Below, piece by piece: positions 8,998 to 44,587 of a DNA stretch of 64,000 nucleotides. The DNA comes from Polytrichum commune (taxonomy: Eukaryota; Streptophyta; Polytrichopsida; Polytrichales; Polytrichaceae). The DNA lies in contig OX485805.1 of the NCBI GenBank assembly GCA_950295325.1, forward strand, positions 17,409,501 to 17,473,500, written 5' to 3'. The notes beneath the pieces are model-generated. The model searched no databases, was not told the origin of the DNA, and was given only the letters and a program-made list of their open reading frames with translations. The translations under genes were made by a program, and so were the position numbers. Position 1 is the first letter of the stretch, and each line of letters begins with the position of its first letter.

Positions 8998-9000
8998 CTA

Positions 9001-13154: not shown

Positions 13155-13404
13155 TACTATCTTGTCAAGTAGAATGTCTACCATGATTTGACTGATATAA
13201 TTTGGTATATCTTGACAGCCTTTCTGCTCCATTTCAGACTCCTTGGTTTAGGGTGGGTCATTTTTAGAAGTATTTATTCATGCTTTCCTTCATTGTTCAT
13301 CCGTCATTTGGATCTGTCCATCATTGTTGTCTTTGGCCATTCATTTCCAATAAATAGGTTTCCCACAATGTTAAGAAACCTCTTTCATATTTCCATCACC
13401 ACGC
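13155..13404 (+). promoter_or_regulatory. Duplicated 5' segment, copy 2, before the transposase
   Basis: Diverged direct repeat of 12240-12470. It ends about 20 bases before the first reasonable transposase ATG (13425). Confidence 0.5.
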
Positions 13405-13424
13405 AAGGCCTCATTCCCCTCATC

Positions 13425-16400: not shown

Positions 16401-17114
16401 AAAGAGACCACAGAGTTTTTCTTCTGCTCAGATGATATCCATAGGTGCGTTAAGGGTAGCAGGCACAAATGGGTTGTTCAATACTCTGCGGAACAGGAGA
16501 GGCCAAGCATTCCGGATGTTTGGCCAGTGAAACTTGGGACTAACCTCAAGCAATGTGAGATCCTGGCCCTCGAGGCGGCCGGATTCCAACTGCCGCAGAA
16601 AGTGCCAGTCTCACCCAGAAGGTTCTTTTCCACTGCACCGTCTCCGGCAAATTTAGACTCCGTGCCGGTGCCAGCAGATGCGGACAGGTATCCTGGGAAG
16701 AGAGAAGAGAAGCTCGTTAAGCGCACCGCAACCCGTCCAAACCCTCAGCAGCGGTTATCCATGGGCTCTGCGGACTCCCTCAAAGCTCAACTCCGCTCGG
16801 TGACGATGATTCCTCACCCTGGCCATGGCTGCATCATTGCGCTAGACTCGATGACGCCACCCGACGTGACACAATACCACATCACCATCAGTTCCCTCCC
16901 GGGTTGCACTTGCCCTGCATTCAAGAAGACAATGACCAACTTTCGAGGGCGGAGTCAATTCTCGTATTGCAAGCATGTTTACTATATTTTTTTAAAGGTC
17001 TGCCATCGCAATCCTGATGTAGACCTTTTCATCCACGCGCCAACCTTCAGCTTCAACGAGGTCAAAGTTATTCTCGAGAGTGGAATTTTAACTCACCCTT
17101 TAGATCGGGCCTAG
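13425..17114 (+). pseudogene. MULE transposase with SWIM zinc finger, interrupted
   Basis: The N-terminal part is open from 13425 to 14036. The frame then shifts by -1 within an A-run near 14028 and continues with a Cys/His module (SSSCVGHLRCKNKECEYL) that commonly precedes the MULE catalytic domain. In that frame there are stops at 14141-14143 (TAG), 14318-14320 (TAA) and 15116-15118 (TAG). The RNase H-like transposase core spans about 14960-15530: FDHVKRVRQWTTMACHVYDS, then NFKGFMADSAQANWNAVRVI with the second-Asp motif. An intron of about 110 bp follows the GTATGT donor at 15530, although the acceptor phase is unclear. The last part (to 17114) has a long P/S/K-rich linker and CTCPAF...YCKHVYYIF, the C-x-C...C-x-H SWIM finger usual for MULE transposases. 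The family assignment is firm; the copy is inactive as read. Confidence 0.82.
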
Positions 17115-17589
17115 GATTTACTCTAAGTGTCCCTTTCTCCCATCAACATGATAGATGAAGTAGTGCCTATTCATCCATGTTTCTAATAGAGTACACCATA
17201 TACTAAGTGATATAAGATTTTCATTGAATAATTAAATATTGTCAGCTCAAAAATATAATAAATATAATCCCATGGATTATTTTTATTCAGCTCAAAAAGT
17301 TGGATTACAATACTCAACCGTATCATGTGTCTCTATACATATTGGGATCATCATTGGTTTTCATCATCTACTTAATTATTATATCACAATTTTACGATCA
17401 TTTTGGCACTTCACGGTTCTCAAACTAAATCAGACCATTTCAAATTCAGGGCATTTATTTTATTTAGTGCCCACACATTCCACGGAAATAGGTCCCAAAA
17501 ATTTCTATTTTTGGAAGAATTTGGAATATTTTAAGTATATTCTTTTACTATTTTAAGGGGATTCTAAATTTAATGCAGAATCTATCCTA

Positions 17590-17662
17590 TTTTTACCACA
17601 TTTCCGCTCTCCTCTCTCCAAATCGCCGCTCTCCGCTCACCGCTCGCATACAAGCCTCGTCC
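17590..17662. repeat. MULE right terminal inverted repeat
   Basis: Inverse of 6458-6520, ending CCGCTCGCATACAAGCCTCG and two more bases, followed by the target duplication GGTTGGAAA at 17663-17671. Confidence 0.8.
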
Positions 17663-25592: not shown

Positions 25593-26470
25593 GAGTATGT
25601 TGTGCTCGAAGTTGTGATGATTGGGGTCACAGGAACTCTTGCTCATCAAAAGAGGAGAATGCTGAGGCTTATGATGTTTGAATGGCAACATTTGTTGTAT
25701 GGATGCAGAGATCTGGACAGCTTCCACCTGAGACTCCAGTAGTACTCAGCCAGGTGGCTTTCCGAGTGCTTATACCATGCTTCTTGATGACTAAGGTGTG
25801 TACTCCATTTCAGCGCTATCTACTTTATGTATTTGATTTTAATTATGTGTATTTGATATCGAGAGTAAAATATAGTTCTTGATTTTTCAAACACATGGTT
25901 TGGAGGAAACAATGCTTTGGCCTCTTGGGCTCTGTTTCTCTTAGCACAAATTTGACTCTGCCTCTCTTGAAATTCAAGGTGGTCTTTGTTCTGAATGTCT
26001 GTCATTTTTCTGCAGGTTGCAGTGACACTTGCCTTGCATCCTTCAGCAAGTTTACTCTTCTTGCCCCTTTTTGCCATTGCTCAGGTGCGGGTTTTCGTTT
26101 CACATTGGTTTGTGTTACTTTGAGTCGTTTCCCAGGTGTTGCTTTTAAGTCTTTTATCTATGTTCTGCTGGAACTTGTACAAACAGACCGCTGATCAATT
26201 TGTGACTGCTTCCAGGTACTCGTAGGGGCAGTTCTTGGAAAGTTAGCATGTTGAATTGTGTACAGAGAACCAACTTTGGTCCTGAAAGTAAGCACCATAC
26301 TAGCTAAGCCAGTTTCTGCAGATATAACCACCTCAGTAGGACCTGCCCTTGCAGATCAAATGGCGGAATCTCCAGGTCTCAATCTGTTTCTTATTGGCAA
26401 CCATTGGAACAGATCAAAACAATACACTGCAGCCAAGAAGGATGCGATAATAACTGCAGCATGTGCCTTT
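25593..26470 (+). pseudogene. AEC-family transporter gene, 5' half (split by a 15.5-kb insertion)
   Basis: Exon-sized segments match the N-terminal half of AEC (auxin efflux carrier / Mem_trans) permeases. A segment near 25596-25650 reads VLEVVMIGVTGTLA. Exon 25709-25795 reads QLPPETPVVLSQVAFRVLIP then CFLMTK. Exon 26016-26084 reads VAVTLALHPSASLLFLPLFA. Exon 26216-26287 reads VLVGAVLGKLA, with an in-frame TGA at 26252-26254. The last exon starts near 26436 and runs KKDAIITAACAF up to 26470. Acceptors and donors are GT-AG for the middle exons. The sequence stops abruptly at TTT, where the element begins; the gene resumes at 41933 in the same frame. The role would be membrane transport of organic anions or auxin-like substrates, inferred from family only. 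With the insertion and the stop it is a pseudogene as read. Confidence 0.72.
26467..26470. other. Target-site duplication CTTT, left
   Basis: CTTT directly abuts the left TIR and is repeated at 41929-41932 after the right TIR. Keeping only one copy restores the AEC reading frame. Confidence 0.8.
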
Positions 26471-26498
26471 AACACTATATTCGTTAAATTGAGACTTT
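26471..26498. repeat. Left terminal inverted repeat of the 15.5-kb element
   Basis: 28 bases beginning AACACTATATTCGTTAAATT are a perfect inverse of 41901-41928. Just inside, GAGACTTTCTCTAGTCTC forms a small subterminal hairpin. Confidence 0.85.
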
Positions 26499-26979
26499 CT
26501 CTAGTCTCAAATTAATATATGGATCACACAACATTCCGTGTTCCGAAACTATATTGAGAACAATCTCAAATATATTATATGTTCTAATATCCCAAATCTA
26601 TTTTGTGTGGACTCAACACCAACTTCATCAACAAAAACACTTTGGGTAGAGCACTCCAAACTAGTTTCACCCAATCAACATATAAAATGATTTCTATTAT
26701 TAGCATGGTCAATAAAATATGCACCTTGCAACATACAAAGTGCATGCAATAAATGCGTATTTCTTCAATGGAAAATTTAGTCCTAAACTTAATAAAAAAA
26801 TAATCTTCACAATTGTATTGAAATATAGTAAATGGATATTCATCCAACCCCAAACAATATAGCATTCGCAAGTTCTACCCAAACTTTGCCCCAAGTTTGA
26901 GGAGCACACATATGAGTAATATATATTCGTCGAATTATTGTTTACACTATAATCATGCTAACACAATCCTACCAACTTC
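26499..26979. other. Subterminal non-coding region of the 15.5-kb element
   Basis: AT-rich, with short inverted words of the TTGAGA/TCTCAA type (near 26488-26510 and 26553-26570). No gene is visible. Confidence 0.5.
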
Positions 26980-29900
26980 TCATTCAACGTGGGTTGCTTC
27001 TTCTGCGATCCGAGCAAGGTTGTCTTTTGCAAACGTTATGTACTTTTGAGGGATGGACACCGATCCACTATGATTTTTCCGTGGTTTCCATGCTATGAAT
27101 ATGGAATCTGTATCTACCCAAGATGGACCATGCTCAAAATCCACCTTCCACCGAAAGTGTTGGTTTGTATCCCAGCCTGTATAATGCCGAACAATATCTT
27201 CATTCCGTGCTGTCGGTCGGTAGTACTCTACTTGTATCTGTCGAAAATGAGGGCTAGAAGTCACAAAATTTGGTTTGGACAAAGCTCTTGCCACCCACAC
27301 TGGCTTTGCATATGTCTCATCTCCCGGGCGCAAAATGAGCATATAACCTTCATGACAATCCACTGCAATGGGGAAAGATGGTGGCGGACGACTACTAGCA
27401 GGCCCCACATAATGGTCGTCCACATCAAACTCCTCTCGCACCTCTCCATTTCCCAAAAGACTAGCCTCCGAAGGTTGTACATTGACACGTGTTTGTGGCC
27501 AAACCCATGCCTTAAAGTAAGGGGTGTATCTTGATGAAGGTTTGCCAAAGCGCCACGTACACGTGTCCAATATTGTATCCAACTTCCGTAACGAAGCCAA
27601 CACGATCCACCAACATCCGCTACCCTCAAACTTTCCCAATATTGTATGAAGCCTGATATGCCTTTACCAATGTCCTCCAAATTCTTCATGGGTATTGGTT
27701 TGCAAGGCTTAGGCTCTCCGTCCGGCAACATCGTCCTTCCCTCCCCATCAACACGCCATACAAGGAGACCCTCCGGCGGGCTCCAGTCTTGTGACGTGCA
27801 CAACAACTTGTATTGCATGGCGGGGACACCATCGTCACGCACGTAGAACCGAAATTGTTGTGCCTTCGTATGTCCGATCAATCGGTGAGCTCCGCTTCGA
27901 ATATACGGTTCTATAAATGCCTTGAAGTCTGGAACCTCCTCGATCATATGGGGGATGACGGGAATGTTCTCCAAATCCATGTACTACTTCATCAACAATG
28001 GGATTGTTGGAAAATCCTCCTCGCGCAACTTCATGCTCCACCGCCCAAAATATGCATCAATATCATCGTGCGTGTGGCCTACCAATAGAAAGGACACAAA
28101 AACCTCCTTGAAAATGCCTTTCGCAACCAACAACGACCAATATGCAAAAACATATCTACTTTTATTGTCCTTCGCACAATTGTCCAATTGGACACGCAGA
28201 GTTGGGGGCAAATTCTTGGCAATCACATCTTCACTTGGTGGCTCCGGCAACGAGTGCACGCACACATCTCTTCCATCCAAGACCGCTTCATATAGAGGTG
28301 TTGATCCCGAGTTTTTAAATAACAATCTTGATGAATAGGACGGCGGTTTCTCCAAATCACGTAAAAGCTTCGCAAATGACCCTATCGTGTGGTTTGAATC
28401 CGCCGGATACAAATCAAGAGCATAATGAGCATACTTGACATCACCATGTCCATGTGCAATCATTCCTGCAATGCGAACCCAGTGGCTTAGTATTCAACTA
28501 TAACACAAAAAAATTCACATGGTGTACATCTATCGCCTCAAGCACAAACCTAAGAGCACAAAATTGTGTTTAGGTAATGCATTGTAATAGTTTTCAAAAT
28601 CACATGTAACAGATACAGGAAGCTTAAAAAGGCTGTCCGTGACTTTGATTCGATTTGCAAAACATGGTGAGGCTGTTTTGGCATGGTCCATTTTGTCATG
28701 GATGATTGTAAGGACCTCCAAAGGCCTAGAGACGGACAAAGCTCTATTTGTGTAGTAATCATTACGGTGTGCCTCTTGCATGTTCACATGCTTGAAATAG
28801 TTCATTTGATGTGCTGCAAAGGACTCTGTCCCCATCGTGTGTGCATCTCGAAGGCGTTTCAACTTCTCGCATTTGGAACAACGGGCAAATTTGTCACCAC
28901 GTCTTTTTGTAATGTATTCGCTAAAGTTCGATTTCTTTATTGCACTCAATTCGACAATGAAATTGGGTCCAACCCGGCCTTTTCGCCAACTGAGTTTACG
29001 TCCAACAATATGTCTTTCCATTTCGTGCCTGTAGGAAGAACCTTCTCCACAACCTTTTCGCCGGTTGCGAGTGTGCGTGTTTTGTGCGGCATTGCATCGG
29101 CAAGGGGGACAATGATGGTTGGCAGAGTGGCTGTTGCTTGTCTCGTTGCTTCCCTTGGTTTCTTCAAGCCCGTATTCCCATGGTGACGAGACTGGCGTCC
29201 TTCTTTGGCATACGCGGCTTGTCTATAAAATTCCGCTTTCAACACACCGTGAATGGTGTACCATGCCGTACAACACACGTCTATGCTCTCAAGGGTGATG
29301 ACCTTGCGACCTGCTCCGTTCACATGTATCGCCCTATGGACATCAAGTTTTTTAGTGGATCTTAGACGGAAATCTCCAAGCCACATTTCCTCACGGATGG
29401 CCTTCAATTTATCCCTTGGGAACAATTGGCAACAACGATGTACACAACAATCCTTTGTGGCAACTTCTCTAATAGACTCCTCACAGAGCAACCTTTGACG
29501 TTTACACTCATTTGCAGACGGAGTAGGACGTGCCAATGTATCGTACTTCCGTAGGCCTTTGCGTAGCCGAATGTTTGCTTGGAGCTCCTGTTGGATTTGG
29601 ATGTGTCGTCGCTCATGGTCATGCAAGCTAACCCCCTCAATTATCACATTCCTCAACGGCCACCTTCGCAACGAGAACCTATGAGTTGGATTGACTTCGG
29701 AATGTACGAGTGATTCCAATATAACAACTCCGACGTCCTCGGTGCCAAGGGGGTTTTCATCAATGCAATCTTGTGGATGTGTGTTACGACAAATACCCTC
29801 CGCCACAACAACTCCACTGTCATTAACAAGTACCACATCCAAATTCACCCATGAAGCTCGTGAAAGCCCTGCACATTCCACTATGGGGCAAAAAGGTGCG

Positions 29901-30046
29901 GATGGCGAAGAACCCCCCAAAGGACCTTCATCTGCACTGTCATCAAAACTATCCTCCCCGACAATGTCTAGCTCATCCCCAGACGGAGATGAAGTGGTGC
30001 CCATGTAATCAGAGAAGGAATCACATCTTCCCCCAACTCCCTCCAT
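26980..30046 (-). pseudogene. DUF7869-like protein, candidate transposase/integrase of the 15.5-kb element
   Basis: Two minus-strand exons, 30046-28550 and 28465-26980, join across an 84-bp GT-AG intron in phase (…FVLLG|MIAHGHG…). The N-terminus is acidic and disordered, followed by a Cys-rich segment (KDCCVHRCCQLF). A CSKCEKLKRLRDAH motif precedes the DUF7869 core: IIHDKMDHAKTASP, then MIAHGHG, then VQLDNCAKDNKSRYVFAY, then FLLVGHTHDDIDAYFGRWS. These Asp-rich, RNase H-like motifs are shared by DUF7869 proteins of animals and plants, generally thought TE-derived. The C-terminus has a WVARAL...IQVEYYRPT module. Breaks: a frameshift near 28950, an in-frame TAG at 27986-27984 (the same frame continues with YMDLENIPVIP), and a frameshift near 27640. 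Start chosen at MEGVGG; an ATG lies 21 bases further upstream. Ten palindromes lie just upstream. Confidence 0.75.
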
Positions 30047-30245
30047 TGCGCCTACACATGTGCACATGAAATCTCAAATAAAATGGACAAAATGTAAGGA
30101 TACAAAAGAATCAATTGATGGAGAAGGTAAGACACAATGATCATTTGGGACAACGCGGCCCGACACATGTGGAACACATCTACTATTAGATCTCCCAATA
30201 TTGTGCATCAGTCCAAAAATGCTCCACAACATAGTTTGGGAGCGG

Positions 30246-30890
30246 GTTTGGGTCGACCGACTCAAACCTTGTACCATGATGCGTCCAAATCCATTTACAA
30301 TTCGTTCACGGAATGGGGTTTGGGTTTGGGTCGACCGACCCAAACTTTATAGGGTTAACCCACCCACACTGGAGTACAGGTTTGAGTCGGTCGACCCAAA
30401 CCTTGTCAATGTCATATTAAAACCTCTCACAGTTGGGCAGGGGTTTGAGTTGACCGACCCAAACTTGATCACCGTAAATCCACCCACAGGGGGTAGTGGT
30501 TTGGATCAGTCGACCTAAACCTTAAAACATGATGCGTTTAGGCTAGTACTGAGTCCGTCTAACCCTTTTGAACATATGAATTAAGGGCCATTAACAATTC
30601 GTTCGCGATGTGGAAAAAAGTTTGGGTCGACCGACCCAAACCTTCTCAATGTCATATAAAAACCTTCCAATGTGGGGTAGGGGTTTGGGTCGACCGACCC
30701 AAACCTCCTCAGGGTCACACCATATCCGCCAACATTGGGGTGTGGGTTCGGGTCGACCGACCCAAACCTCCTGAGGGTCATACCCTACCCTCGAACAATG
30801 GGGTGTGGGTTTGGGTCAACCGACCCAAACCTCCTCATCGTCGTACTCAATTCGCCCACAATTGGGTGTGGGCGAGGGTCGACGGACCCT
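30246..30890. repeat. Ten dispersed 22-bp palindromes upstream of the DUF7869-like gene
   Basis: Copies at 30246, 30324, 30380, 30443, 30499, 30620, 30683, 30746, 30809 and about 30870 have arms GTTTGGGTCG and CGACCCAAAC around a two-base core (mostly AC here). Several carry one or two mismatches. The spacing is irregular (about 55-120 bp, with three consecutive 63-bp steps), unlike the strict 32-bp array at 34162. The same palindrome is found only within this element in the window. Confidence 0.85.
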
Positions 30891-30899
30891 AAATCACCG

Positions 30900-33800
30900 C
30901 AAAATCCGGCGTTTAATGCGGCGGAAATCACGATGTGGTTGGCTTTTTGCTCATTGCAAAGTTCACAGTGGGGTTGCATGCTGTGGATAGCTGCTCATGA
31001 ACGACAGCATGCACAAACCTTGAAGTACAGCTCCGACTGAGAGTTCTCCCTATGAATTCAGGAGTGTGAGAACAGAAAAAAAAGACCGACTTTTGAGGGG
31101 TGCGCCCCTTTATACTATCCACCTCCGCTTCCCCGACTTCCTCATTGGATGCCTTCACCGCCTAGTTTCCCGCCTACTTCTCTAGGTTATTTCAAACCTC
31201 CTGACAGAATCCCCCAGTTTTTGTTAATTAAAGAAAATGCGCATCTAACCTCAGCCGTCATCTGGGTTATCCCAGCCGTCATCTGGATACCCCAGCCGTC
31301 ATCTAAGTTAGCGTCTGACTGTATTGACGGTGCGTATTGAAAGTAATGTGGATATTTAATCCGTTTTTCATTGTTTTGTGTGGTTATGACATGCACCATG
31401 CACATATGTGAGGAAGGGTGGCGGCCACATTAATTTTTTTAAATGTCATGAGGAGAGAATGTTTGTGATAAGTGATTTAGAACAAAAACTTCTACAATGT
31501 CACCCTAATGCATCATATACATATTAAATGATGATATTGATCTACTTTAACTCAAACATTACGGTATGGCATTAACCAATATGTAGACAAAAGAAGTCTA
31601 TTAAACATTGTGTAACGCCTTATGGTAAGAGTCACTAAATACAATAGTTAAAGTGGTTATGAAGATCCTCGCAAGGGGAATTATTAATTTTGAAATCAAA
31701 TTATGTCATGACAAAGTTCATTTATTGTTCCAAATCTGAATTTGCAACAATGCAAGTGACAAGAGCTTTTATATATAATATGTTGTCATCCCTAAACCCT
31801 AAACCCTACAATATTGTCCTATTCTCTCGCATGCAACTGTGGCAATGACGAATGTATGTGGACGTCGATAAGGGGATACTAACTACCAATGTCGCTTTTG
31901 AGTTCAATATTTCCATGCTAATTGAATCCATCCTCAAGTTCACTTCAAGTTTACTAATGTGTGTGCACAAAACATCCAAAGTTGAACCCTAAACCCTTAT
32001 AACGTCCACAACATGAAATACGTATTGACTAAACCCTACACCAATTAGTATATCATGTTTAGACGTTCCAAATAATATATTCACATGATCAAGATTGTGT
32101 TCACTATAACCTTCCTATTAGACTCTTCTTCATATACAAACAACATTTGACAATGTTATATCTTTCTCCATTATCTAATATACGTGGAGGGAACAATGAA
32201 CAACAACACGATAAAGTTAGACCCCTAAATCCTAATAACATCCACAACATGAAATGTTATTTGAATAAACACAAGACCAATTAGTATATCACGTTTACAC
32301 GTACCAAATAACAACTTATCATACTCAACATCGTCTTTACTATAACCTTCCTATAAGACTCTTCTCACCAGTAAGTCAATGTTGTACGTTAATATTGGAT
32401 AGATTAATATGTTATAACCCTGACTCCTAAACCCTAAACCCTAAACCCTAAACCCCAAATCTTGTAGTTGTTCAGTGCTACCTCCATATACAAACAACAT
32501 CAAGTTTATCTTGCGCCATTATCTAATATACTTGGAGCGAACCTTCAATAACAACATGATTGCTTGAAGGGCTTCATATGATGTTGTGGTTCTCCGAATT
32601 TGCTTTTATATCACATTCCAAGTACATATATCACGATCCATGGTTTATTGGCGACTATGTGATTCATCAAAGTGAATATCTAGGGGATACCCTATAAAAC
32701 TTGAGCATGTTAGCATTTTGAAATAAAGATCATGCAATTCCAAACCCTCACAATATGCACTTGGGGAAGGTATTCATTTAGGCTCCACATTCAAATATCC
32801 TCAATTTCCGAATTTCATGTTGGGGGGTGGGGATTGTCTTTTTTATTCATTGCATATTGTGTGAGTTGTTGGCATCAATGGTAAAGTCTAAATGTCAATG
32901 ATTACATCGTTAAATGTCACGTAATTGCATTTTTTTTCTAACGTGCTCAAACAAACGAGAAACCAATGACTTCAACTTGTTTGGAAAATTTAGTTAATGG
33001 TGTCATGTAAGTAGGGGTTAAGTATTAGTGTTAGCATAAAGTTGCGTTGTAAAGATGCATTAGTTGTATAAATGGTTTAATTTTTTAGAATACCTCATTT
33101 GATGTATACCTTAGGCTACTCCAAAGTCTATTGAAAATTGTACTACCCGCTAAGGGTTTACTCCTTAGAGGGATGTGAGTTAGGGTTCCCCGTAACCCTA
33201 TTCCCGTTGCTGCCCTAATCACGTTGGCACCCTATTCGTGCGGTTGGGGGCCAATTCCCGAGGCCAACAAAACCCCAGCCGCCAAGCATTCTCCTCCTTT
33301 CTCTCTCTCTCCTCGCCAACCTTTCGCTCCGCGCCTCTTGTGGAAGCGCCGCCTCTCCTGAAGCGCCGCTTTCGCGAAGCGCCGTGGCGATTCAGGGTGG
33401 CACTTTTCTTTACATTCCTTCCCCACCCTACTTTTCTTCTTCTTCCCACCCTTCTCTTGCTGTAGCAGCAGATTGCACTTCTGCAATCTTAGAAGTTAGG
33501 TAGTGTTGCTCATTGTATCATTGTTGAAGTGTTTTCCAGATTGTTGAAGGGTTTTCCAACATTCTGTGTGAGCTTTAGGCAGTGCTTGCGAGAGTTAGAA
33601 GTGCGGATGAGTGCTTGTGAGTGCATGTGAGTGCTTGTGAGTGCTTGTGAGTGCTTGTCAGATTAGGAAGTTCGATAAGAGATACAAAAGTGATACAAAA
33701 GTGATTTCAGAGATTTAGTTATTGTTTTGAGAGATTCAGTTGTTGTTTTAAGAGACTCAGTGGTTATTATGAGAGATTCAGTTGTTGTTTGAGAGTTACA

Positions 33801-34130
33801 ATTGTTGTTTGAGTGATTCTGAAGAGACTCAAGAGTTGTGTGAGAGATTGTGGATTTATTGAGAGATTCAACAAAGGTTTGAAATCTCTGGTAGTTGTTT
33901 GTGAGTTTTAGCGTGCCTGCGAATAGGAATTCACTGATTTTGTCTTAGTCGAAGAAGAGCACTTGTTCAAAAGCAACCATCTGCAACGACTACAACAACA
34001 ACTGTCAGCAAAGGTATTGTTTTTTAAGGGGTTCCAATATGTGTTTATTAATTGACAGTGTTGTAGCATACACAATGCATAAGCATTGTATGCTACATGC
34101 CAAGTTTAAAAAACAATATTAAAATAAACA
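30900..34130. other. Divergent intergenic region with telomere-like tracts and GC-rich leader
   Basis: Lies between the two outward-facing gene blocks. Near 31252-31310 a CCCAGCCGTCATCTGG(A/G)TA unit is repeated about three times. CCCTAAA-type telomeric words occur at about 31790-31806 and 32430-32457 (three to four consecutive units). The block 33230-33490 is GC-rich with repeated GAAGCGCCG words. 33600-33660 holds a 10-bp GTGAGTGCTT tandem, and 33700-33900 repeated AGAGATTCAGTTGTTGTTT units. I infer that 33200-34700 is the promoter and 5' leader of the plus-strand gene. No exon is recognised. Confidence 0.45.
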
Positions 34131-34161
34131 GTTTTGGGAGACGACCCAAACACAACCTCAT

Positions 34162-34503
34162 GTTTGGGTCGATCGACCCAAACTCAGCCTCAGGTTTGGG
34201 TCGAGCGACCCAAACCTAACATCTTGTTTGGGTCGGTCGACCCAAACACAACCTCATGTTTGGGTCGAGCGACCCAAACCTAGCATCTTGTTTGGGTCGG
34301 TCGACCCAAACACAATCTCATGTTTGGGTCGAGCGACCCAAACCTAGCATCTTGTTTGGGTCGCTCGACCCAAACACAACCTCATGTTTGGGTCGAGCGA
34401 CCCAAACTCAGCCTCAAGTTTGGGTCGAGCGACCCAAACTCAGCCTCAAGTTTGGGTCGAGCGACCCAAACCTAGCATCTTGTTTGGGTCGAGCGACCCA
34501 AAC
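34162..34503. repeat. Array of eleven 22-bp palindromes at an exact 32-bp period
   Basis: Copies start at 34162, 34194, 34226, 34258, 34290, 34322, 34354, 34386, 34418, 34450 and 34482; a half copy precedes at about 34133. Arms GTTTGGGTCG and CGACCCAAAC are almost invariant, while the central two bases vary (AT, AG, GT, CT). Three alternating 10-base spacers occur: CTAGCATCTT, ACAACCTCAT and TCAGCCTCA(A/G). The 32-bp period is about three helical turns, so all sites face the same side of the DNA. The array sits 550-210 bp upstream of the plus-strand start codon. Confidence 0.92.
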
Positions 34504-36067
34504 TTAACCTCATTTTTATAAACGTATCAGGACATCAATGATGATAAAGACGATATAAAGTGCAGATCCACCTACAAATAACAAAGTACCATATTACCTT
34601 ACAAATGACTATTATATCACAATATACAATCCACGAAAAATGTGCATTTGTTCAATCTGGAGAAGTTTGGGTCGAACGACCGAAACTAACATTATTTCTT
34701 CTTGTCGTGCAGATGGCCCCAAAGAAAAGACCTGGAGAAAGGTGGTTCATGCTTGCGCCAGACATGTTATGGCAAGAACACGAAACACCACAAGATGACT
34801 CCTATGTCCCTAAGGACGGGCTTGTCATAGCCTGGTCTATTCAAGTGGTGAAAGCATCACTTTATAAAATGATATTTGTTGTGAAAGTTGGGACCGTAGA
34901 GAAGCATACATGGGCCACTCTTATGGGGTGGGAGGTGGCATCGGTTCAAGCTCTTGGAGACTACGTGGATGTCGTCCTCGAGAACACCGCTGTGCAGAAC
35001 ACCCATATGTTCATGCACCAGTTCTCCGAACCCTTTGACGCTATATATGCAAAGGAGACGTGTGTGGATCCAGACGTCATCAAACCGGAGTCAATATTCA
35101 TCGACGGAAGTATATCGAACACAAAGGTGTCGAGCCGGTTTACAAAACTGAAACATGCGATCAGCGTGCTGAACAAGACCCTGCAGACCAAGTCCAAATC
35201 TCAGCAACCAGTGAGGCGGAAAGCACCAGCTGAGGAAGGTGCAGGGTCGTCAAGGCCCCAATCGGTGAGGAAGCCGCGACCAGTACCGGCTGACTCAAGA
35301 CGAACCACTCCCTCTGAGACACCGGCGGATAGCGCTCCTCCTACGCCCTCAGGAAGCCGGCAAACAACTCCGTCCAAGAGGGCCAGAGAGTCATCTGTGA
35401 TGATTGACGAGCCAGTCTCTCCTGAGTTGCGTATGCCGAAGCCCGGCCAGGAAGTGGATGCAGGGGAGATCCAAAAAATCGTGAACAATTTCACGACAAA
35501 ATGCTCCCATTGTTTTTTCATGGGCAGGGATTTTAAGTTCGACGTCAACATCAACCAGTGCCATCTAGCGCCACCAGAAAAGTGTGTCCGGGCAAAAGAA
35601 GACGCCTACGTCAACTGGATAATTGCACAGATCGTTAGCGAGCAATTCAAAGACGACAGGCAAACGATTGTAATGATGCCACAAGGACAAAAGAAAATGC
35701 CCACACCTGAGATGTGGCCGACAATTCAGAAAGGGGATTTCTGGCTGATAGACGGCCAGCACAGCGTGGAGGCGTCGAAGAAAATCCAACTGATGACTGA
35801 GTGGGACGATCCCAACCATCAGAAGGAGAAGTTGAAGGTGTGGAAGGCACTGGTGGTGTGGTCTGACGATGAGACCCGACTGAGCGACATCTCCCGTTAC
35901 TTCAACATGGGGAATAAGAAAAGGGCCTACCAAGCTTCCTAGATAAGGAATATCATGGCCTCGCGGGAGGTGTGGGAGTTATATGGTAGGCCTCCCAAGG
36001 AGAGGGAGAATGCGAAGGACAAAAATCCAAAGTGGGAGGTGACTATTGTGAGGGCCTTCCATTTGTG

Positions 36068-36089
36068 GTTTGGGTCGATCGACCCAAAC
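36068..36089. repeat. Element palindrome within intron 1
   Basis: Perfect copy (arms GTTTGGGTCG and CGACCCAAAC, core AT), 29 bases after the exon 1 donor and 90 before the exon 2 acceptor. Confidence 0.9.
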
Positions 36090-37539
36090 TCTTGTTGCAG
36101 TTCTTGTTCATGATATTGCTTGAGGACCAAATGTACATATCTAACAGGAATTCCAATGTTTGTTTTGTTCACCTGCAGGACTTTAAATACCAAATGATAA
36201 ATAAATTCTCCTCTATTGATAATGCTAATCACAAACAGAAGAAATACAACGAGCTGAGAGGGGAAATTTATTTAATTACAGCATCCGACTCCGTTTGGGC
36301 GAAGTGGAAGAGTGTGTTTGAAAAGCATAAGACGGGGGAGCTCATCGACCCAGACACAGGAATATACTTCAACCAAACCACGCGCTTCAAACAAATGAAG
36401 CCGCTCATGAGAGAGTTCTTTAGAACTCTTCAAGGGCTTTCAGAGGCGGAGGTGGAGAAGGCGGCGTCCCACATCCTGCACGTGGAGCCCACGGCGAAAA
36501 GGTGCTGGGTGCATCCGAAGATTGTCTTCCTAAAGCCCAAATCCTTCGTTCCTTCATGCTACACCATGAAGGAATGGACGGACAACAGGAAGAAGAAGAC
36601 GATTATCGTGCAGGAGCTGCATAAATTGGTTTCGGAGAAGAACATTTTCGTGGATGGCGAGGTCCATGTGGAAAACTGGAGAGCATTCAAATCTGAATAC
36701 AAGTTTACCAGTGCCTCCATGGCTGCTCTCATAAGGGAGGCGGGAGAAGACTTCTTGCGGTCCAAGTTCGTGAAGGGTGGGAAGAACCGGGCGCTTCCGG
36801 ATCACACAGCGTGTGCGTTCTCCAACTTCATCAAGGAGAAAAAGATTGTCCACTTTGAGGGGGACGCTTACTTCAACCTTATCACCTTCGAGCCTCTGAA
36901 AATTCAGGGCTGGCCAGGTCAAGACGCCAGAATGGCAATAAGGACGAAAGCAAGGGACCGCTTTCCTTTTGGAATGATTGATTTCAGGAACATTCCTGGA
37001 AGCTCATTTGAGGGCACGATGAGCACCCTCTTCTACGACCCCTTCCTATCCAAGTTCGTCGATTATGCGAGCCCTAAGTTCAGGGAGGTAGATATTTGGC
37101 TTTGGATAGTCGAGGATAGGAGGGCGGAGCAGGTGTATGACCTTGTGTGGAAGTTGTAGCCGGAGTATGCTGTCTCCAAGTCTCACTACATCGCCGCACT
37201 GGCGGAGGGGGCTTACACGACGTTGAGGGACAAGAAGACCGAGTTCGTCAACGTCTTGTGTTTGTACTTTGTGTACAAAGCGAAGTTGCTGAAGGTACGG
37301 AACCACCCTATATCCCGGATGGATAAACTCTTCCAAGTCCCGGAAGGGTTGGGTGCTAGCAAGTGCCTTTACGACGAGGCGAAGTACGCGAACTATCCTG
37401 TAGATGAGCTGCGGATGGAATTTTACGTGAGAATGATGAGGACGCTGACGAAGAGAGGAGACTGCATCTTCAACGTCTTCGGGGGCTCGAAACCCATCTA
37501 CGCAGCCATGGTAAGTGTCCATCACATAGCTCGTGCGTA

Positions 37540-37597
37540 GTTTGGGTCGATCGACCCAAACTAGGCTCTTTGCAGGTTTGGGTCGATCGACCCAAAC
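37540..37597. repeat. Two element palindromes within intron 2
   Basis: Perfect AT-core copies at 37540-37561 and 37576-37597, in an intron that splits the methylase-like domain between motif I and motif II. Confidence 0.9.
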
Positions 37598-38779
37598 TAT
37601 ATATTATTTTTGGTCTTATTTATGTCCCTCGCCTAATTCTAATTTCCATATAAATTGGATTGTGTAGATGTTGGGGTTGAACATCTACTCCTACATAGAG
37701 GATGGCGATCTGCAATTTTACAGGACGCAGAAATCGCTGGCGAGGAAGATGGACATCCTCGATTGGATCCCAGGTAGCTACGTAGACGAGGTTGTTCAGG
37801 GGGGTGAAAACCCTCTTGATAGGGCGAGGCGGATCAACCCGGAGGAAATGGCCACGAGGGCCACAACCCAAGTACCCGAACCTCTTGTCGGGTTGCATCC
37901 GGGCAATCCGTCCCGCACAGCAGGTGGAGAGGTGGAGGAGGTGGATGAAGAAGAGGAACACGGAGAAGAGGAAAATGAAGGCGATGTGGAGGAAGGGGCA
38001 ACGGGCTTCACGCAAGAATCCGAAGCCCCTCAACGGAAGAAGGCAATGCGGGTGGCAACCCCTCAGAGCAAGCTGGTGCCCGTCCTGACGGTGGACGATG
38101 CGAGGGACATGTTCTCCAGAGACGCGACTGCCACGTTCAGGGAGAGGAGGAGGTTGAAGGGGAAGAAACTCTATGGCGACTACGCAGTGGAGGAGACCAT
38201 CGCCATAAGCAGCGAGGACGACGACGACATTGAGCTCGCCAAACGGCTCAGATCGGATCCCCCCTCCCCGACAGTGTTCGCTGGCATGGTTAGGGTGAAG
38301 CCCGAGGTCTTGACTGTGGAGGAGGCGAACGAGAAGATGAAGAGGGACGAGGAGCAGCGAATCCGCCTGCAGAAGGCTGCCGCGGAAGAACCCTCAATGC
38401 GGAACGAGGTCGCAGAGCTCAGGGCTCTCCTGTTGGAGCAGGAGTGTCAGAGGGCGATGGCCCAACCTCCGTCCCACGCAGACTTGATATCACAAATGAT
38501 ACAAGGAATGTGGGCGCAAGGGTTGGTGGTGGCTCCGTCTAGCTCGTTTCCGCACTTGCCCCCCGGCTTCCCAGCGCAGAACATCCCTCAGCACCCAGTG
38601 TCGCAGGGGTCATTCAGCTTCCAGCACATGCGGCCGCACCATGTTCCGTACGCCCCGGTCCAGCAAGTAGACGATCCCACCATCTGGCGCGTCCCAGGAG
38701 CCTCCTCCCCTTTGGGCCTTCCACCACTTCGGCCCCCCATAGCCATGCCGCCCCCTCACCAACAGGACGACCCTATGAT

Positions 38780-38870
38780 GTTTGGGTCGACCGACCCAAA
38801 CCCAACATCCACTGTAGGTCCCCAAGGCACCTCTCCTGATGCGGGGCAGTTTGGGTCGGGTGACCCAAAC
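38780..38870 (+). repeat. Two palindromes translated in frame as F-G-S-x-D-P-N
   Basis: Copies at 38780-38801 (core AC) and 38849-38870 (core GG, one arm mismatch) lie inside exon 3. They encode FGSTDPN and FGSGDPN, so the palindrome has entered coding sequence without breaking the frame. Confidence 0.85.
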
Positions 38871-39170
38871 CTCAGTGCAGATTAGTCTTCCCTTGCCCAA
38901 CATGGGTGTCAAATAGACACGGCCATGTTAAATGTTGAAGGCCTGCAAGGGCCTGGTGATACCTCTACTCCCAACCAAATCGATGAACCTATGCATGATG
39001 CACATGCGGAGATTGGTTTAGGACAAGGGCCTGATGTTGAACCTTTGCAGGAGAAGATTATTGACGTCGTCGGAGAAGGCGGTGGCGAGAGAGGCGGGGC
39101 AGCGGGGACGGTGGAGGCTTCCACATCGTCGAGACATGACCAGGGCGAGGTAATACACTGAGCCCTCCCA

Positions 39171-39192
39171 GTTTGGGTCGATCGACCCAAAC
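39171..39192. repeat. Element palindrome within intron 3
   Basis: Perfect AT-core copy 21 bases after the exon 3 donor. All three introns of the first four exons therefore carry at least one palindrome near the donor. Confidence 0.9.
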
Positions 39193-39632
39193 TTCTTGGG
39201 TCATTGTCTTGTTGGCCTGGTCGTGTCCCCCTTGCTAGGAGGAAATGCACACCCCCTCCCCCTCTCATGCTCAACACTTGCCCCCCCTCCCCCAACGTGC
39301 CCCCCCGCGATCCCTTTCGTCTCACCTGCACTCGACTACGCTCGACCTTGGCGGCGCGCAACCAATTTTGTAGATGTCGAATTAGGATAGTGTGAATGCC
39401 CTCGTTCACCGCGTCCCCCCATCAAATTGTACATAGAGATTTGTAAAAATAAAATTATTATTTTTGGCGCCCATATGTTTGCATCCGTGTCCCAATGTAT
39501 GTTGTTCCCCTTGTATGTTTTTGCTGCCACCAATGGTCCAATTCTTCTTGTGTTTGTACAAAATTTCCGTTCTGCTTGAGATGGACATAGCATAATATAG
39601 TCCTTGCCGCCTTCTCTCGCTCGTCGCCGCAG

Positions 39633-40445
39633 GGTTCGGAGCATAGCGTCGCGGCTCCCCACCGATCCTCCCCGAGGAGTGTGGAGGACAGCGTGCTGGT
39701 CCCCCCGATTTTGCCCTCGCCACCTTCGCCTCCCAAGACCTGGTTCCTGGTGCTAGACCTCAACGGGGTCCTTGTCCAGTGCGTGCATTGTCCGAAGGTC
39801 CCCACGGTACCTTTCTGCAAGCCCGAGGACGCCAACTACGATGGACCCCCCGCGTACATCAAAAGCAAGCTAGTGTACCTCCGCCCGTGGCTTCGGCGCT
39901 TCCTACAGGTCGCCCTATCCAAATGGTGGGTGATCGTGTGGAGCTCCATGAAGTCCGAGAACACCCAGGCCGTCGTGGAGTTCATCTTCAAGGGACTCCA
40001 ACCCCCGTGCTTGGTCCTAGGACATGATTCTTGTAAAACATTATACACCCCCGAGGGCAGGGTTGTGAAGAAGCCCAACAACCCCGCCGTAAACCAATTT
40101 CTTAAGGTCTTGAAGCCAGTCGTATGGGACCAGCGTCTGACCATGGTCGGTTGTCCCTATGACGTTCGCCCCACCCGTGACAACACGTTGATGGTGGACG
40201 ACAGCGCTTCCAAAAACATTTTGAACCCGACCTCGAACTTCATAGTTTGCCCGACGTGGACGGTCGAGAAGGTCCGAGACCGCTTTTTGTTAGACCTACT
40301 TAAGTACATTCAAACGCTCGTGGGGAGCGGACTACCCGTGCCCCGGTTCCTTAGTTGTAATCTGATAGGTGAAAGATACATGGATCCGAAGGACTATATG
40401 TACAGAGAGTTGTACGTTCACGCGAAATATAATAAACTCATTTGA
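39633..40445 (+). CDS. FCP1/HAD phosphatase-like domain exon (C-terminus of the ParB-methylase protein)
   Basis: Starts after an acceptor ending GTCGCCGCAG and joins exon 3 (39149) in phase 0; ends at TGA 40443. The domain is FCP1/NLI-phosphatase-like. WFLVLDLNGVLVQ is motif 1 (usually D-x-D-x-T/V), with the second Asp replaced by Asn. LRPWLRRFLQVAL and VIVWSS follow (motif 2 Ser), then a Lys region (VVKKPNNPAV), then NTLMVDDSASKNIL (motif 4 Asp pair). The Asn in motif 1 would weaken or abolish phosphatase activity, though relaxed DxN variants exist in plant proteins of this superfamily. About 270 residues with no internal stop. Role inferred: a protein-binding or CTD-phosphatase-like module attached to a DNA-binding methylase-like protein. 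Confidence 0.68.
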   Translation, partial: GSEHSVAAPHRSSPRSVEDSVLVPPILPSPPSPPKTWFLVLDLNGVLVQCVHCPKVPTVPFCKPEDANYDGPPAYIKSKLVYLRPWLRRFLQVALSKWWVIVWSSMKSENTQAVVEFIFKGLQPPCLVLGHDSCKTLYTPEGRVVKKPNNPAVNQFLKVLKPVVWDQRLTMVGCPYDVRPTRDNTLMVDDSASKNILNPTSNFIVCPTWTVEKVRDRFLLDLLKYIQTLVGSGLPVPRFLSCNLIGERYMDPKDYMYRELYVHAKYNKLI

Positions 40446-40562
40446 GATACTACATGGTGTGCCATTGTGTGTGATATATTATGCCTCAATTGTATATCGA
40501 TTTCTCATGCTCCCCCCTGCCCCCCTCCCCTTGGGTTTTGTTTGTTTTAATTTTGCCATCAG

Positions 40563-41373
40563 CGTTTGGAGCCCTCGATTGAGATCGTCAGCGAATCAAA
40601 CTTGGGGAGCTTCTTCTACGAGACCGTCTACGATGCCGCGTCCATCATCGACTACTCCAAGGAGCCTATTGACGCCGGTGTCGTCGATAGCCCCCCAACC
40701 AAGCAAATCTTCCGGCGATCTCCGTCTCCGTCGCCGCTCAAGGGCATAAATCGCAAATGCGTCCGGACATCCCCCTCTCGGCCCGGCGGCAGTAGTACAC
40801 CTCAACGGCGACTGCGGATGGACGCTCGGCCAACGAAGAGTGGAACCCTTCCTATTCCTTTGCGGGACGCATTGCCCCTCCTCGCCAACTCCGACGGGAA
40901 CGCCCCCGATGACAAGGTGAACCCCCCCCCCCCAAAAAAAAAAACCTGGTTAACCGCGCATTACAATCATCGCGCACTTAAAAAATGAACGTGTGATACG
41001 TTCGGGTCTTCCTCCCTAAACTAACACGTGTGTTCTTGCATTCACGCGTTGCAGGTTGCTCCCACCCGTAAGCCTATGCGGGCTAGTGTGTCCGTCGAGT
41101 TGGAGCGTTTCTACTCCATGACCAGAAATGCAAGACGGTCCACTTTCATCGTATTCGAATTCTTCGTCGTATAATTCGGGCGGCCGACGGAATCCAAAAT
41201 GTGTTATTGATGGCGGTCACCCCAAGAATGGCTATAGTCGCGGGGCGGAGATTTTCAGGAATGTTGAAGCAATGCGAGCAAAAGAAGCTGCAGCAAAAGA
41301 AAAAAAGGCAAAAGAAAAAAAGGCAAAAGAAAAAATTGCAAAAGAGAAAGAGGCAGTCTCCGAGGCTAGATAG
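40563..41373 (+). pseudogene. Two further plus-strand exons, basic/serine-rich then lysine-rich coil
   Basis: Exon 40563-40916 follows an acceptor (TTTTGCCATCAG) and ends at a donor (GACAAG|GTGAAC). It encodes SIEIVSESNLGSFFYETVYD, then an RRSPSPSPLKG basic/serine stretch. It joins in phase 0 to 41055 (VAPTRKPMRASVSVELERFY). About 70 bases later the frame must shift to reach the open tail ending in repeats of AKEKKAKEK, a charged helix. The link to the HAD exon is not clear, because that exon ends in TGA and no phase-matched donor is seen. These exons could be an alternative 3' end or a separate small gene. No known domain. Confidence 0.4.
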
Positions 41374-41528
41374 GCCATAGGCTAGATAGGCCATAGTAGG
41401 CGTAGGGTTGTGGGCCATAGGCAAGAACATTTTGGGTCGCACTATCCAATGGATGTGTGGTGCTAGCATGCTATGCATTTTACATGCCACACTTTGTATG
41501 TTTTTTTTTGCAATAATATAAGTGTCAC

Positions 41529-41795
41529 ATGATTTCCCCTTCCATATGGTCTAAGGTTTGGATTGCCCTACCTAAACCATCACAAATATGAGTTTGGAAT
41601 ATTTTGTATGTTATATTATATTGGTTCACATATTTCCCCTTCAATATGATCTATGGTTTGGATTGCCCTACCTAAACCATATTCATACAAGTTTTTGTGC
41701 GATAATATGAATGTTTTAAGATTTCCCCTTCAACTTGGCCTAAGGTTTGGATTGCCCACCCTAAACAATCCCAAATATGAGTTATTAATGGGGTT
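41529..41795. repeat. Three tandem units of about 100 bp
   Basis: Units share GATTTCCCCTTC(C/A)A(T/C) followed by GGTTTGGATTGCCC(T)ACC and TAAAC(C/A)AT. They start at about 41529, 41632 and 41720, just inside the right end of the 15.5-kb element. Confidence 0.8.
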
Positions 41796-41900
41796 CTTGT
41801 TCTAAACACCCGCTTCAAAGTGTTCTTATCTTACAACTTTCTCCAATATGTGTTCCATTTATCCTTGTTCTTATTTTTGTGAATGTCTCAAAATGCCCAA

Positions 41901-41928
41901 AAAGTCTCAATTTAACGAATATAGTGTT
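41901..41928. repeat. Right terminal inverted repeat of the 15.5-kb element
   Basis: Perfect 28-base inverse of the left end, finishing CGAATATAGTGTT, directly followed by CTTT (41929-41932), the right target-site copy. Confidence 0.85.
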
Positions 41929-44587
41929 CTTTGGAAACTCTTTCCCTCTCCCTTGGTTAGCCCCAGAACTCGTCTTCCATGCCATTCTCAAGCTCATATT
42001 GTTTCCTTGTGTTTCTGGTAGCAATTTTTTGGCTTTCCAGAAATTGTAACAGAAGCTCCATGTATTGGTGGTGCTTTGTTTCTCACTGTCACATTGCATT
42101 TGTTGTTGCTGGAGCAGATTTTTATGACAGGGGTTTTGGCAGCTGAAGAGGCAAGTCGAGTTGCAGGGTGAGTTCTCTAATCTAGTGGTCTTGTTCAAAG
42201 TATTATGCTTTTGGAGGATCTCAGATCAAATCTGACTTGAAAGGACTCTGTTAATTGGACCTATTAAATTATAAGCCTGAGCATCTTTCTAATTGATTAT
42301 TCTGGTTGTCTCACTGAACTAATTTAAGGTATTTGGCATTATTTATGGTTGGGTGGTCACCTGCTCTCTGGACAGTGGGCTATTCCCTAATTGCTACCGG
42401 AGATGAACAACGTGAAACAAGAGAAGACGTATCCAAAACCAGGTTTTCGTGGAGAACATTGGTGGATGGATTCAGACATATCATGAATCCTCCTTTGTAT
42501 GGAGTGAGTGCCTTATAACCTGTCCTCCAGTCCATTAGTCCTCTGAAATTAATTTAGTACGAGCTATTTTTTGGCTATTTGTGGATCCTAGCTCGCCAAG
42601 GTTATGATATTTTTCTATAAGGCCAGATAATCAATTTCTTCAGGTTTAAATCCTGTCAGTAGTTTTATTACTAATTGGATTTGAGACAGGTGTTGGCAGG
42701 TGTGCTTGTAGGGGGGACACCCTTGTCTCATATCTTTCTGCCTCAAGCTGTGGGAGGTGTTTTTTCAGCAGAACCTACAGGGGTTTTAGCCGCTTTCACT
42801 ACAGGTGGCATTCTATGTCCTGTTTTTGATGTAAGTATTTGATATTTACATTCTTTGGTTAAGTCTGTCTTTGTGAGTGTTATTCTCAATCGTATTTACT
42901 GTAACTCTCTGTTGCTTGCAAACCTGTCATGTGGAATCTTGATGTCAATCACCTTTGCAGGTTTTCACTTGTGTAAGTGTAACACTCTGCATGGCCTTAC
43001 ATCAACTCAATTTGAAGAGACATGAACATTTTGCTGCTCTGTCTGCAGGCAACCTCGCTGCTAGGATCTGCAACTTTGGCAGTACAGACTGTGGTGCTCG
43101 CAACCTCTCTTGCATCCTCCTTGCCTCCATTAAGTGCAACAAGTGGCACCAAGAAATCCTCCAAGGCAGATCCTCAGGATGGTGCCAGTATCATTGATCT
43201 GGGCTCGAACCTTCCAATGCTGGAAGCAATTCTTGACAACTGAGCTTTTTGGATAACTTCATCAATTCGCCTCTTTGCAATGCCTATTGTTGTCATTGCC
43301 TCAACCACGGTGTGAATTACAGCCTCTCTTTTTGTTAACATATCATTGCAAAGGACGGTGATATAAGCATTTGATTTCTGTGCCATCAGTTTTTTAATAT
43401 AATCTGCATATTCTGTGTTTAAGGTGAAACATATGGTTTGTTACAAATACGTTCCATCTAGACCTACACATAGTGAATCTTTGGGTACGATTTGAAATAA
43501 TTTTAATTGAATTTGTATTTGATCTTGCAATGATGATGGGGTACATGAGTGTCACTTGATTATTATGCAATCAGAACATTAGGGATTGGATTACGAGTAC
43601 GTGACCATGGTATCTGCTGCAACTAATTATGTACCCTGCTTATGGATGTTGCAGATGATGCAATGCGCTCGCATTCTACCTGTTAATCCCATCTTCAATC
43701 TCATATCACTGGTGCGTATCTCCTATTAAATTCCTTTCAGGCCCCTCTGTCCAGCATTTTGCATGTCCAGGACTCTAGGTTAAACCACGGTCTTTTAACT
43801 CTTTGTGAGATCTATGTATAGTGTCCTTATTGATGTTGTATATATTAGATGTGAGAGTATATCAATTGTTGGCTTTGACCAATCATGTTGTTTTAAAGAC
43901 AGTATTTCTCACCATTACAACAATAACTATGTGACTTTTTGACCTGATTAAAGATGCAACTTCTCTTATTTGATATTTCATTAAGGATCTGTGTTGCTTG
44001 ATCTTCTCATCATTCCCAAGCTTGACATTGGTGTTTACTCTAGTGATTCTTATTTCTATCAGCTCAACCTGCAGTGTTGTAGTGTGAGTACTATTGATTG
44101 TCAGACTGAGGCAATGATGTCTAAAGTTCAGGCAACTGGCTGCAATGTGACATGTGTGCAGGTAGAAGCAGCGATGCCTTCAGCCCAGAATCTTGTTTTA
44201 TTGTCACAGGTAAAGATGTGAAGCAACTAGTGACATAGAGGAAAATAATGTTGATGAATCCATACTTAGTTTGATATGAGCCACAAAATCATCTTGCATT
44301 GATATGCTATGTACTAATCAACATGTTTTTCCATTCAGCAGCTTCGGGCAAGTACACGGCCTCTGTCAGGGATGCTTGCTGATCTTCTACTTCGTCAGGT
44401 ATTGAGCTTCTTCTGAATATATGCATTCAATTGAAGTGTTCACAAAGTAGTCATGTTGTGTTCTGCTTCTGGGATCAGCTGGCTTTTTCTATAATCTAAA
44501 AAGTTTGCTATGCTCAAATTGTGATTCTTAACTTCTGGATTTTGGCAGTATGCACTCTCAATAGTGCTCATCACAGTCTGGATGTGA
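41929..44587 (+). pseudogene. AEC-family transporter gene, 3' half
   Basis: Begins exactly after the element with CTTT GGA AAC TCT TTC, continuing the left-half frame as F-G-N-S-F-P-L-P. Exons with GT-AG borders: 42022-42167 (FPEIVTEAPC, ending EEASRVAG), 42329-42503 (LFMVGWSPALWTVGYSLI), 42690-42830 (VLAGVLVGGTPLSHIFLP), 43049-43309 (ATSLLGSATLAVQTVVLATS, then an in-frame TGA at 43241 and FWITSSIRLFAMPIVVIA), 43655-43711, 44162-44209 (VEAAMPSAQNLVLLSQ), 44342-44398 (LRASTRPLSGMLADLLLRQ) and 44549-44587 (YALSIVLITVWM, stop). AMPSAQN and the hydrophobic helices are hallmarks of AEC permeases, which have about ten membrane helices. Splicing between 41933 and 42022 is unclear. Disrupted by the insertion and two TGA codons (the other at 26252), so non-functional as read. 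Confidence 0.78.

Follow-up and report, generated by a model that had tools for sequence, protein, structure and literature searches.

A Sola1-like giant transposon family of Polytrichum commune with a DUF7869 gene, a divergent ParB-like gene and recurrent palindromes

The stretch of 64,000 nucleotides analysed here (the window) corresponds to C3:17409501-17473500 of the 408-Mb Polytrichum commune assembly, the single genome from which all our genomic evidence is drawn. Positions 26471-41928 of the window are occupied by a complete transposon with terminal inverted repeats (TIRs) and a 4-bp target site duplication, CTTT, which we term family F1; F692 and F3 are two further families with DUF7869. 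Its mobility, its ends and duplication, its gene set, the purifying selection on its genes and the occurrence of family-specific palindromes at similar places can be read from the sequence itself. We propose, with a confidence that we would place at about even, that F1 is a giant cut-and-paste transposon whose ParB-like protein binds the element's own palindromes and counters silencing. The features of the window copy are the following:

26467-26470: target site duplication, left copy, CTTT; empty site in two paralogs
26471-26498, plus strand: left TIR, 28 bp; 800 genome matches at ≤1 mismatch
26980-30046, minus strand: DUF7869 transposase gene, read from a first ATG at 30046; Pfam PF25273 E 3e-37
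30234-30893: palindrome array 1 (GTTTGGGTCG-NN-CGACCCAAAC) in the 5' leader of the transposase gene, spacing mostly 56-63 bp
34142-34517: palindrome array 2, in 32-bp units, in the 5' leader of the ParB-like gene
34713-36046, plus strand: ParB-like exon, motif LIDGQHSVEA near 35751; homologous exons in F692 and F3
36068-36089: single palindrome in the intron after the ParB-like exon
36173-37511, plus strand: second exon, methyltransferase-like by motif reading alone; F692 homolog at hhalign E 6.8e-12
37540-37597: two palindromes in the intron after the second exon
37668-38885, plus strand: third exon, acidic by eye, from exon reading
38780 and 38849: two palindromes in the third exon, the only window sites placed in coding sequence
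39171-39192: one palindrome, in the intron that precedes the NIF exon
39633-40445, plus strand: NIF/FCP-type phosphatase (HAD) exon; Pfam PF03031 E 1.1e-13
41430-41766: four degenerate palindromes of the GTTTGGATTGCCCTACCTAAAC type (≤5 mismatches), right subterminal
41901-41928, minus strand: right TIR, 28 bp, a perfect match to the left TIR
41929-41932: target site duplication, right copy, CTTT, read at both ends

An earlier note on this DNA had described a 15.5-kb TIR element and proposed to look for further copies with the same ends, duplications and genes. The element itself is borne out by the perfect 28-bp TIRs, the CTTT on both sides and the empty sites. The TIR, which starts with AACACTA, is found 393 times in forward and 407 times in reverse orientation in the whole genome, versus 0 and 0 matches for the reversed-pattern control, and the 800 matches rule out an artefact or a single insertion. 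Among 100 of these matches that were listed, 37 head-to-head pairs lie less than 60 kb apart: 24 of them span 14-19 kb, the commonest size among the matches listed, one spans 22.75 kb, eleven exceed 26 kb and one is 4.78 kb long. A 4-bp duplication flanks 17/17 F1 element pairs read, the window copy included, with a length of exactly 4 bp in all ten pairs measured for length, and 53 of the 68 letters of the 17 duplications are A or T. Two paralogs of the insertion locus, which lie outside the window on either side and are 97.0% and 95.4% identical to it over ~500 bp, show the empty site, with one CTTT and no element. The exact restoration of the host reading frame claimed in the earlier note holds at the junction, but not ~20 bp downstream of it, where the host copy in the window lacks one base compared with both paralogs; the host gene itself matches no Pfam models. 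Compared with six other F1 copies, the window copy is 73-93% identical over the alignable interior; for the right-hand 0.55 kb, reported separately for three of them, the identities are 92.9, 93.4 and 97.7%. The window copy is decayed; other F1 copies keep these transposase and ParB exons open, and the gene order is repeated in F692.

The DUF7869 protein, taken for the transposase in the earlier note and likely to be so on the present evidence, is very probably the transposase of F1, because both families with defined ends (F1 and F692, of three) make 4-bp duplications; DUF7869, of which we found no mention in the literature searched, thereby gains a likely function. It was the only Pfam match among the transposase open reading frames scanned, and its gene lies near one end in F1 and in F692. 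In the window copy an in-frame stop interrupts the gene at 27984-27986, and the reading frame is broken near 28.95 kb and again near 27.6 kb; the last exon is open over 502-504 aa in four of the six other F1 copies read. From 1,491 first-look candidates in the genome, 150 DUF7869 matches were scored, which form at least three groups (F1, F692 and F3 being the three opened), and 0/14 control genomes gave a match. Aligned DUF7869 sequences share the conserved order D ... DNC ... GHTH-[ED]-D-x-D, which is found in one frame in four of six further fragments, the L036 copy (see below) departing from it; these residues would be compatible with a DDD/E catalytic core. The ratio of non-synonymous to synonymous divergence (dN/dS) of the last exon is 0.14-0.27 in six comparisons of four F1 copies, and that of the transposase is 0.14-0.21 between F1 subfamilies. 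Comparisons between very close F1 copies, with few changes, yield ratios of up to 0.84.

For the second gene, whose exon borders in F1 were set by hand reading without transcripts, the earlier note had read ParB, methylase and HAD parts. The last of these is solid (51.6 bits against a PF03031 cut-off of 21.8), the ParB-like identity comes from motif reading and comparison between families, and the methylase is called from its motif alone. In the window copy, in-frame stops interrupt the ParB-like exon (35940-35942) and the second exon (37157-37159). The NIF exon probably belongs to the same gene as the ParB-like exons, since strand and order are equal in F692. The motif expected in a ParB context, D/N-G-x-H, appears as IDGQHS in F1, VNGQHT in F692, VDGQHV in F3 and WDGNHR in a Mutator-like element (MULE) of the same genome, F2. 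Between F1 subfamilies (three copies) the ParB exons show dN of 0.09-0.10 and dS of 1.8-2.9, which is saturated and in one pair beyond correction, with ratios of 0.03-0.05, and dN/dS of the NIF exon is ~0.2. The DPPY-type motif is the catalytic motif of N4/N6 DNA methyltransferases; inspection by eye did not reveal it in those exons of F1, F692 and two MULE proteins that were read, although another exon could contain it, and for this reason the methyltransferase-like part may be inactive. In all three DUF7869 families opened for this gene (F1, F692 and F3, leaving aside subgroups such as L057/L058) the ParB-like gene is divergent from the DUF7869 gene, and the NIF part is present in two of them (F1, F692); the same gene order in F692 and the ParB-like gene in F3 rule out an incidental nested cargo. 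Searches of viral contigs (transposase and exon-2 alignments), phages (two ParB-like queries) and prokaryote genomes (ParB exon alignment) found no relatives outside this genome, and the PDB sequence search gave nothing below E 0.17. As a separate observation, dS between F1 subfamilies is strongly uneven along the element (~0.3-0.5 for the transposase, 0.75 for NIF, and the saturated values above for the ParB exons), which suggests that the subfamilies exchanged parts.

The 22-bp palindrome of F1, GTTTGGGTCG-NN-CGACCCAAAC, matches exactly at 9,231 genomic sites, against none for the reversed control, and occurs also in MULEs, so that it is not the private family envisaged in the earlier note. 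Seven F1 copies hold 217 sites at ≤5 mismatches, 145 of them with distinct context, and the arm positions agree with the consensus in 86-100%; sites within one array share descent, and these counts are therefore not independent. In six copies 163 of the 175 sites at ≤2 mismatches are non-coding, with coding sequence making up ~49% of the length by the hand-set borders, and the 12 coding sites fall at two places of exon 3 that all six copies share. One further degenerate GTTTGGATTGCCCTACCTAAAC-type site lies at 41000 of the window. The 4.78-kb F1 derivative has four sites of this type, three at right-end distances like those of the 41430-41766 sites and one at a distance like that of the 41000 site; close to the terminus, these degenerate palindromes may be a site for the transposase or for ParB. 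Of the half-site changes in the 145 distinct sites, 99 affect one side and 12 affect both, and because compensatory changes are scarce (2 of the 12 are complementary), the pattern points to a protein that would recognise DNA rather than an RNA stem. Recurrent palindromes (at least three) were detected in seven of ten segments scanned and in 0/50 block shuffles; the segments in which they were not found are two of flanking DNA and L036. We have not found such palindromes in print among open papers.

F692, named after a 692-aa open frame, has a different TIR, ATGGGGATATTAACTAAAATGAGMC, with 45 + 44 matches; its right TIR agrees with that of F1 at 16/28 positions, a value reached by 247 of 100,000 shuffles. 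Lengths cluster at 25 kb (median 25,073 in 33 pairs), and 4-bp duplications were read in 5/5. Opposite the transposase F692 carries a ParB-like exon (VVNGQHTLAA), a homolog of exon 2, an acidic exon and a NIF exon (43.1 bits on PF03031), in the same order and on the same strand as in F1; hhalign relates the ParB exons of the two families at E 2e-4 (a single-comparison E-value), and the NIF exons are 33% identical (E 2e-25). The F692 palindrome, CCCACGGGTG-NN-CACCCGTGGG, has 644 genome sites (reversed control 0) and lies in the leaders of the ParB-like and transposase genes as well as in other internal places; 37 of the 50 listed fall inside the F692 intervals used, two of which were estimated from one TIR. 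In F3, the third DUF7869 group, the palindrome GGTGAGGCA-NN-TGCCTCACC (155 genome sites, reversed control 0) was spotted first, and a ParB-like gene (PVDGQHVEHA), divergent from the transposase, was then sought and found beside it. This gene is related to that of F1 at hhalign E 3.9e-5, the first reading frame having given only 15 columns at E 0.019, and the region between the two divergent genes holds six palindromes when only the inner 18 bp are required and five when all 20 are. In their gene leaders, all three DUF7869 families opened thus carry a palindrome of their own, with a 2-bp spacer. A further F3 transposase copy, L036 (C3:1628500-1638499), has a tandem array upstream of it at ~7511-10000, with units of ~59 bp as deduced from alignment offsets; F3 palindromes near this copy lie at C3:1640674-1641308, beyond the stretch analysed.

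F2 is a MULE-like element of ~12.3 kb (L049+L038+L048, C1:2142500-2170999), whose transposase matches SWIM weakly, at E 0.075 and below cut-off, and whose duplications are 10 bp long in 2/2 copies, one of them nested in an F1 element. It resembles F1 in having a ParB-like gene (WDGNHRFFAW), methyltransferase-like exons and the same GTTTGGGTCG palindrome, beside which it holds a second palindrome family, CCTGTGCGTTAACGCACAGG; it differs from F1 in its MULE-like transposase, its 10-bp duplications and its ParB-like protein, for which no homology to that of F1 was detected. MULEs of this genome contain a stretch resembling an S-adenosylmethionine (AdoMet) motif, VVDLTCSTGASILATRACGRHLLAFEGD, and in F2 this stretch is matched by three NCBIfam methyltransferase-type models at E 0.035-0.2, all below cut-off. 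The nested F2 copy, with its 10-bp duplication CTGCCTACAC, explains the 29.7-kb length of the F1 copy at C1:63977224-64006922, the one opened among the forms of 26-44 kb.

According to the mechanism that we propose, the DUF7869 transposase would recognise the 28-bp ends and make the 4-bp duplications, as the anatomy of the element suggests, and the second gene would give rise to a ParB-like/methyltransferase-like/NIF-phosphatase protein with putative enzymatic activity at most. The ParB-like protein may bind the 22-bp palindromes in both gene leaders and in the introns, from which it could load along the element in the way ParB does from parS; once loaded, it would keep the two promoters and the body of the element from silencing, by analogy with VANC for VANDAL elements. 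That the ParB-like protein acts on the palindromes, as the earlier note assumed, is probable because all three families opened pair a ParB-like gene of their own with a palindrome of their own; the gene and its possible binding sites together suggest that F1 marks or shields its own copies. Seven F1 copies have an observed/expected CpG ratio of 0.75-0.85 and two F2 copies one of 0.76, versus 0.29-0.62 in ten nearby stretches, which speaks weakly in favour of the proposal. Only tentatively, and with some doubt, we extend this idea to giant transposons of plants and algae in general: their ParB-methyltransferase-like proteins might be a self-addressing system, adopted by at least two transposase superfamilies, in which each protein co-evolves with a short-spacer palindrome of 20-22 bp arrayed in leaders and introns, and loads there to keep chromatin open, with piracy of palindromes between elements.

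Several observations weigh against this proposal. At 0.59, the CpG ratio of F692 falls among those of its surroundings, and a MULE-like element elsewhere in the window has a ratio of 0.65; since, in addition, the GC content differs, the CpG argument is weak. The ParB-like and methyltransferase-like domains stay below every curated cut-off, neither has a Pfam match in F1, the best ParB-like profile match is PHROG 1033 at E 0.18, and an AlphaFold model of the F1 ParB exon made without an alignment was unusable (mean pLDDT 33.8). Among the F692 palindromes listed, 13/50 fall outside the F692 intervals used. The ParB-like protein of F2 is not detectably homologous to that of F1 (hhalign E 0.054 and 0.15), and because the F1 palindrome is also present in MULEs with this protein, a scheme of one protein for one palindrome is too simple; it is possible that F2 pirated the F1 palindrome across superfamilies. 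Finally, two-sided changes in the F1 sites number 12 versus 3.1 expected under independent sides, an excess that could be explained by shared descent of array units or by a weak structural constraint.

The ParB-like protein could instead be a transcriptional autoregulator of the transposase and of itself, acting through the leader palindromes without any role in silencing. Such a function would suit the main arrays of F1 and F692, just 5' of two divergent genes, and the arrays of F3 between its two divergent genes, but an operator needs neither the single sites in the later F1 introns nor the other internal places in F692, and placement in introns fits VANC targets, as described in PMC5735166, better; we regard autoregulation alone as rather unlikely. 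For the Ectocarpus Sola1 protein, active N4-cytosine or N6-adenine methylation of the DNA of its own element has been suggested (PMC12477816); the same role for the protein described here would agree with the AdoMet-motif-like stretch of the MULEs and with the sub-cut-off matches of the window MULE (PF01555, E 0.022) and F2 (the NCBIfam models above). Considering that the DPPY-type motif was not seen in the exons read and that no curated cut-off was reached, we judge such an activity to be unlikely.

The great length of these elements, with palindromes through the body and degenerate sites near the right end, would also be consistent with ParB-like clamps that compact a 15-25 kb element, or synapse its distant ends, for pairing by the transposase. 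This explanation appears distinctly improbable to us in view of the 4.78-kb derivative, which has neither ParB exons nor a perfect palindrome and yet shows clean ends and a duplication, even if this copy may reflect a post-insertion deletion or a short element may need no help. The tandem nature of the arrays, the presence of the same palindrome in two transposon superfamilies and the excess of two-sided changes could all be accommodated if the palindromes were RNA hairpins or selfish, tandemly spreading repeats to which the ParB-like gene is unrelated. A hairpin is nevertheless disfavoured, despite that excess, by the low number of complementary changes, and three families with three sequences in similar geometry beside a ParB-like gene would hardly be expected of unrelated repeats, which makes this the kind of explanation to which we assign very little probability.

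As to classification, constant duplications in 17/17 F1 and 5/5 F692 elements, together with the two empty sites of the window copy, are those of a cut-and-paste TIR transposon. CACTA/EnSpm elements have TIRs that start with CACTA, mostly a 3-bp duplication and a Transposase_21 domain; an assignment to this group from the AACACTA end is ruled out by the 4-bp duplication and by DUF7869 as the only Pfam match. Zisupton/KDZ elements make an 8-bp duplication and are ruled out by the exactly 4 bp in 10/10 pairs measured, and piggyBac and Kolobok by the occurrence of TTAA in 0/17 F1 duplications. Sola1 elements make a 4-bp duplication, as do F1 and F692. Sola2 elements of slime moulds share with F1 the 4-bp duplication, short TIRs and chimeric cargo, but are described with AWWT-type AT-rich targets (PMC3627910), and AWWT is found in 0/17 F1 duplications. 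In the literature on Ectocarpus, Sola1-1_Ec32 is an element of 21.5 kb with a ParB-methyltransferase gene opposite the transposase; its authors suggest that ParB-methyltransferase proteins bind and modify their own transposon, and they report nested insertions and broken transposase genes in the giant Ectocarpus families (PMC12477816). F1 is likewise giant and encodes a ParB-like and methyltransferase-like protein on the strand opposite the transposase, and the position and strand of the ParB-like gene are as in Sola1-1_Ec32 in F1, F692 and F3, with the domains compared at motif level; on the other hand, the Ectocarpus element belongs to a different lineage, and the main text of its description mentions neither palindromes nor a phosphatase (PMC12477816). 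Because a Sola1 element with a ParB-methyltransferase gene has already been published, the new transposon group that the earlier note contemplated does not stand in the strong sense, and the most fitting description of F1 is that of a giant element resembling Sola1 in its gene layout.

Bacterial ParB-parS systems have palindromic sites near the gene. F1 resembles them in its palindromes near a gene whose product has a motif resembling the ParB fold, and is unlike them in being a eukaryotic transposon with many tandem sites and with attached methyltransferase-like and phosphatase parts. VANDALs, in turn, are MULEs. In Arabidopsis these multi-gene DNA transposons resemble F1 in their family-specific tandem arrays and element-encoded protein, VANC: its motifs are tandem and family-specific, lie in introns and upstream regions and evolve with the protein (PMC5735166), and supplying VANC leads to loss of methylation (PMC5735166; PMC10398659). 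Non-coding, family-specific arrays that covary with an element protein were found in all three DUF7869 families opened. The VANC motifs are, however, 8-9-mers in one orientation, in contrast to the 20-22-bp palindromes described here, and no ParB or NIF domain is mentioned in the passages of PMC5735166 that concern VANC.

The kind of element is therefore known, and what our analysis adds are candidate target sites differing from family to family, the NIF part and the association with MULEs. The Ectocarpus study names no target site in its passages on these proteins (PMC12477816); candidates are now available in three families with three sequences, so that the idea could be tested directly through binding and swap experiments. 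Should the ParB-like protein indeed counter silencing, it would stand beside VANC as another such system of different construction, assembled from prokaryote-type parts, and might go some way towards explaining how elements of 15-25 kb reach tens to hundreds of copies.

The second giant element in the window, at ~6458-17662, is MULE-like and related to F2. By eye, it shows a 9-bp duplication, GGTTGGAAA; a palindrome of its own, around GGTGCCGTTAACGGCACC, lies between its two genes, which are placed as follows:

8209-8997, minus strand: methyltransferase-like open reading frame of the window MULE; PF01555 match below cut-off, as given above
13173-17114, plus strand: transposase exons of the window MULE, from reading

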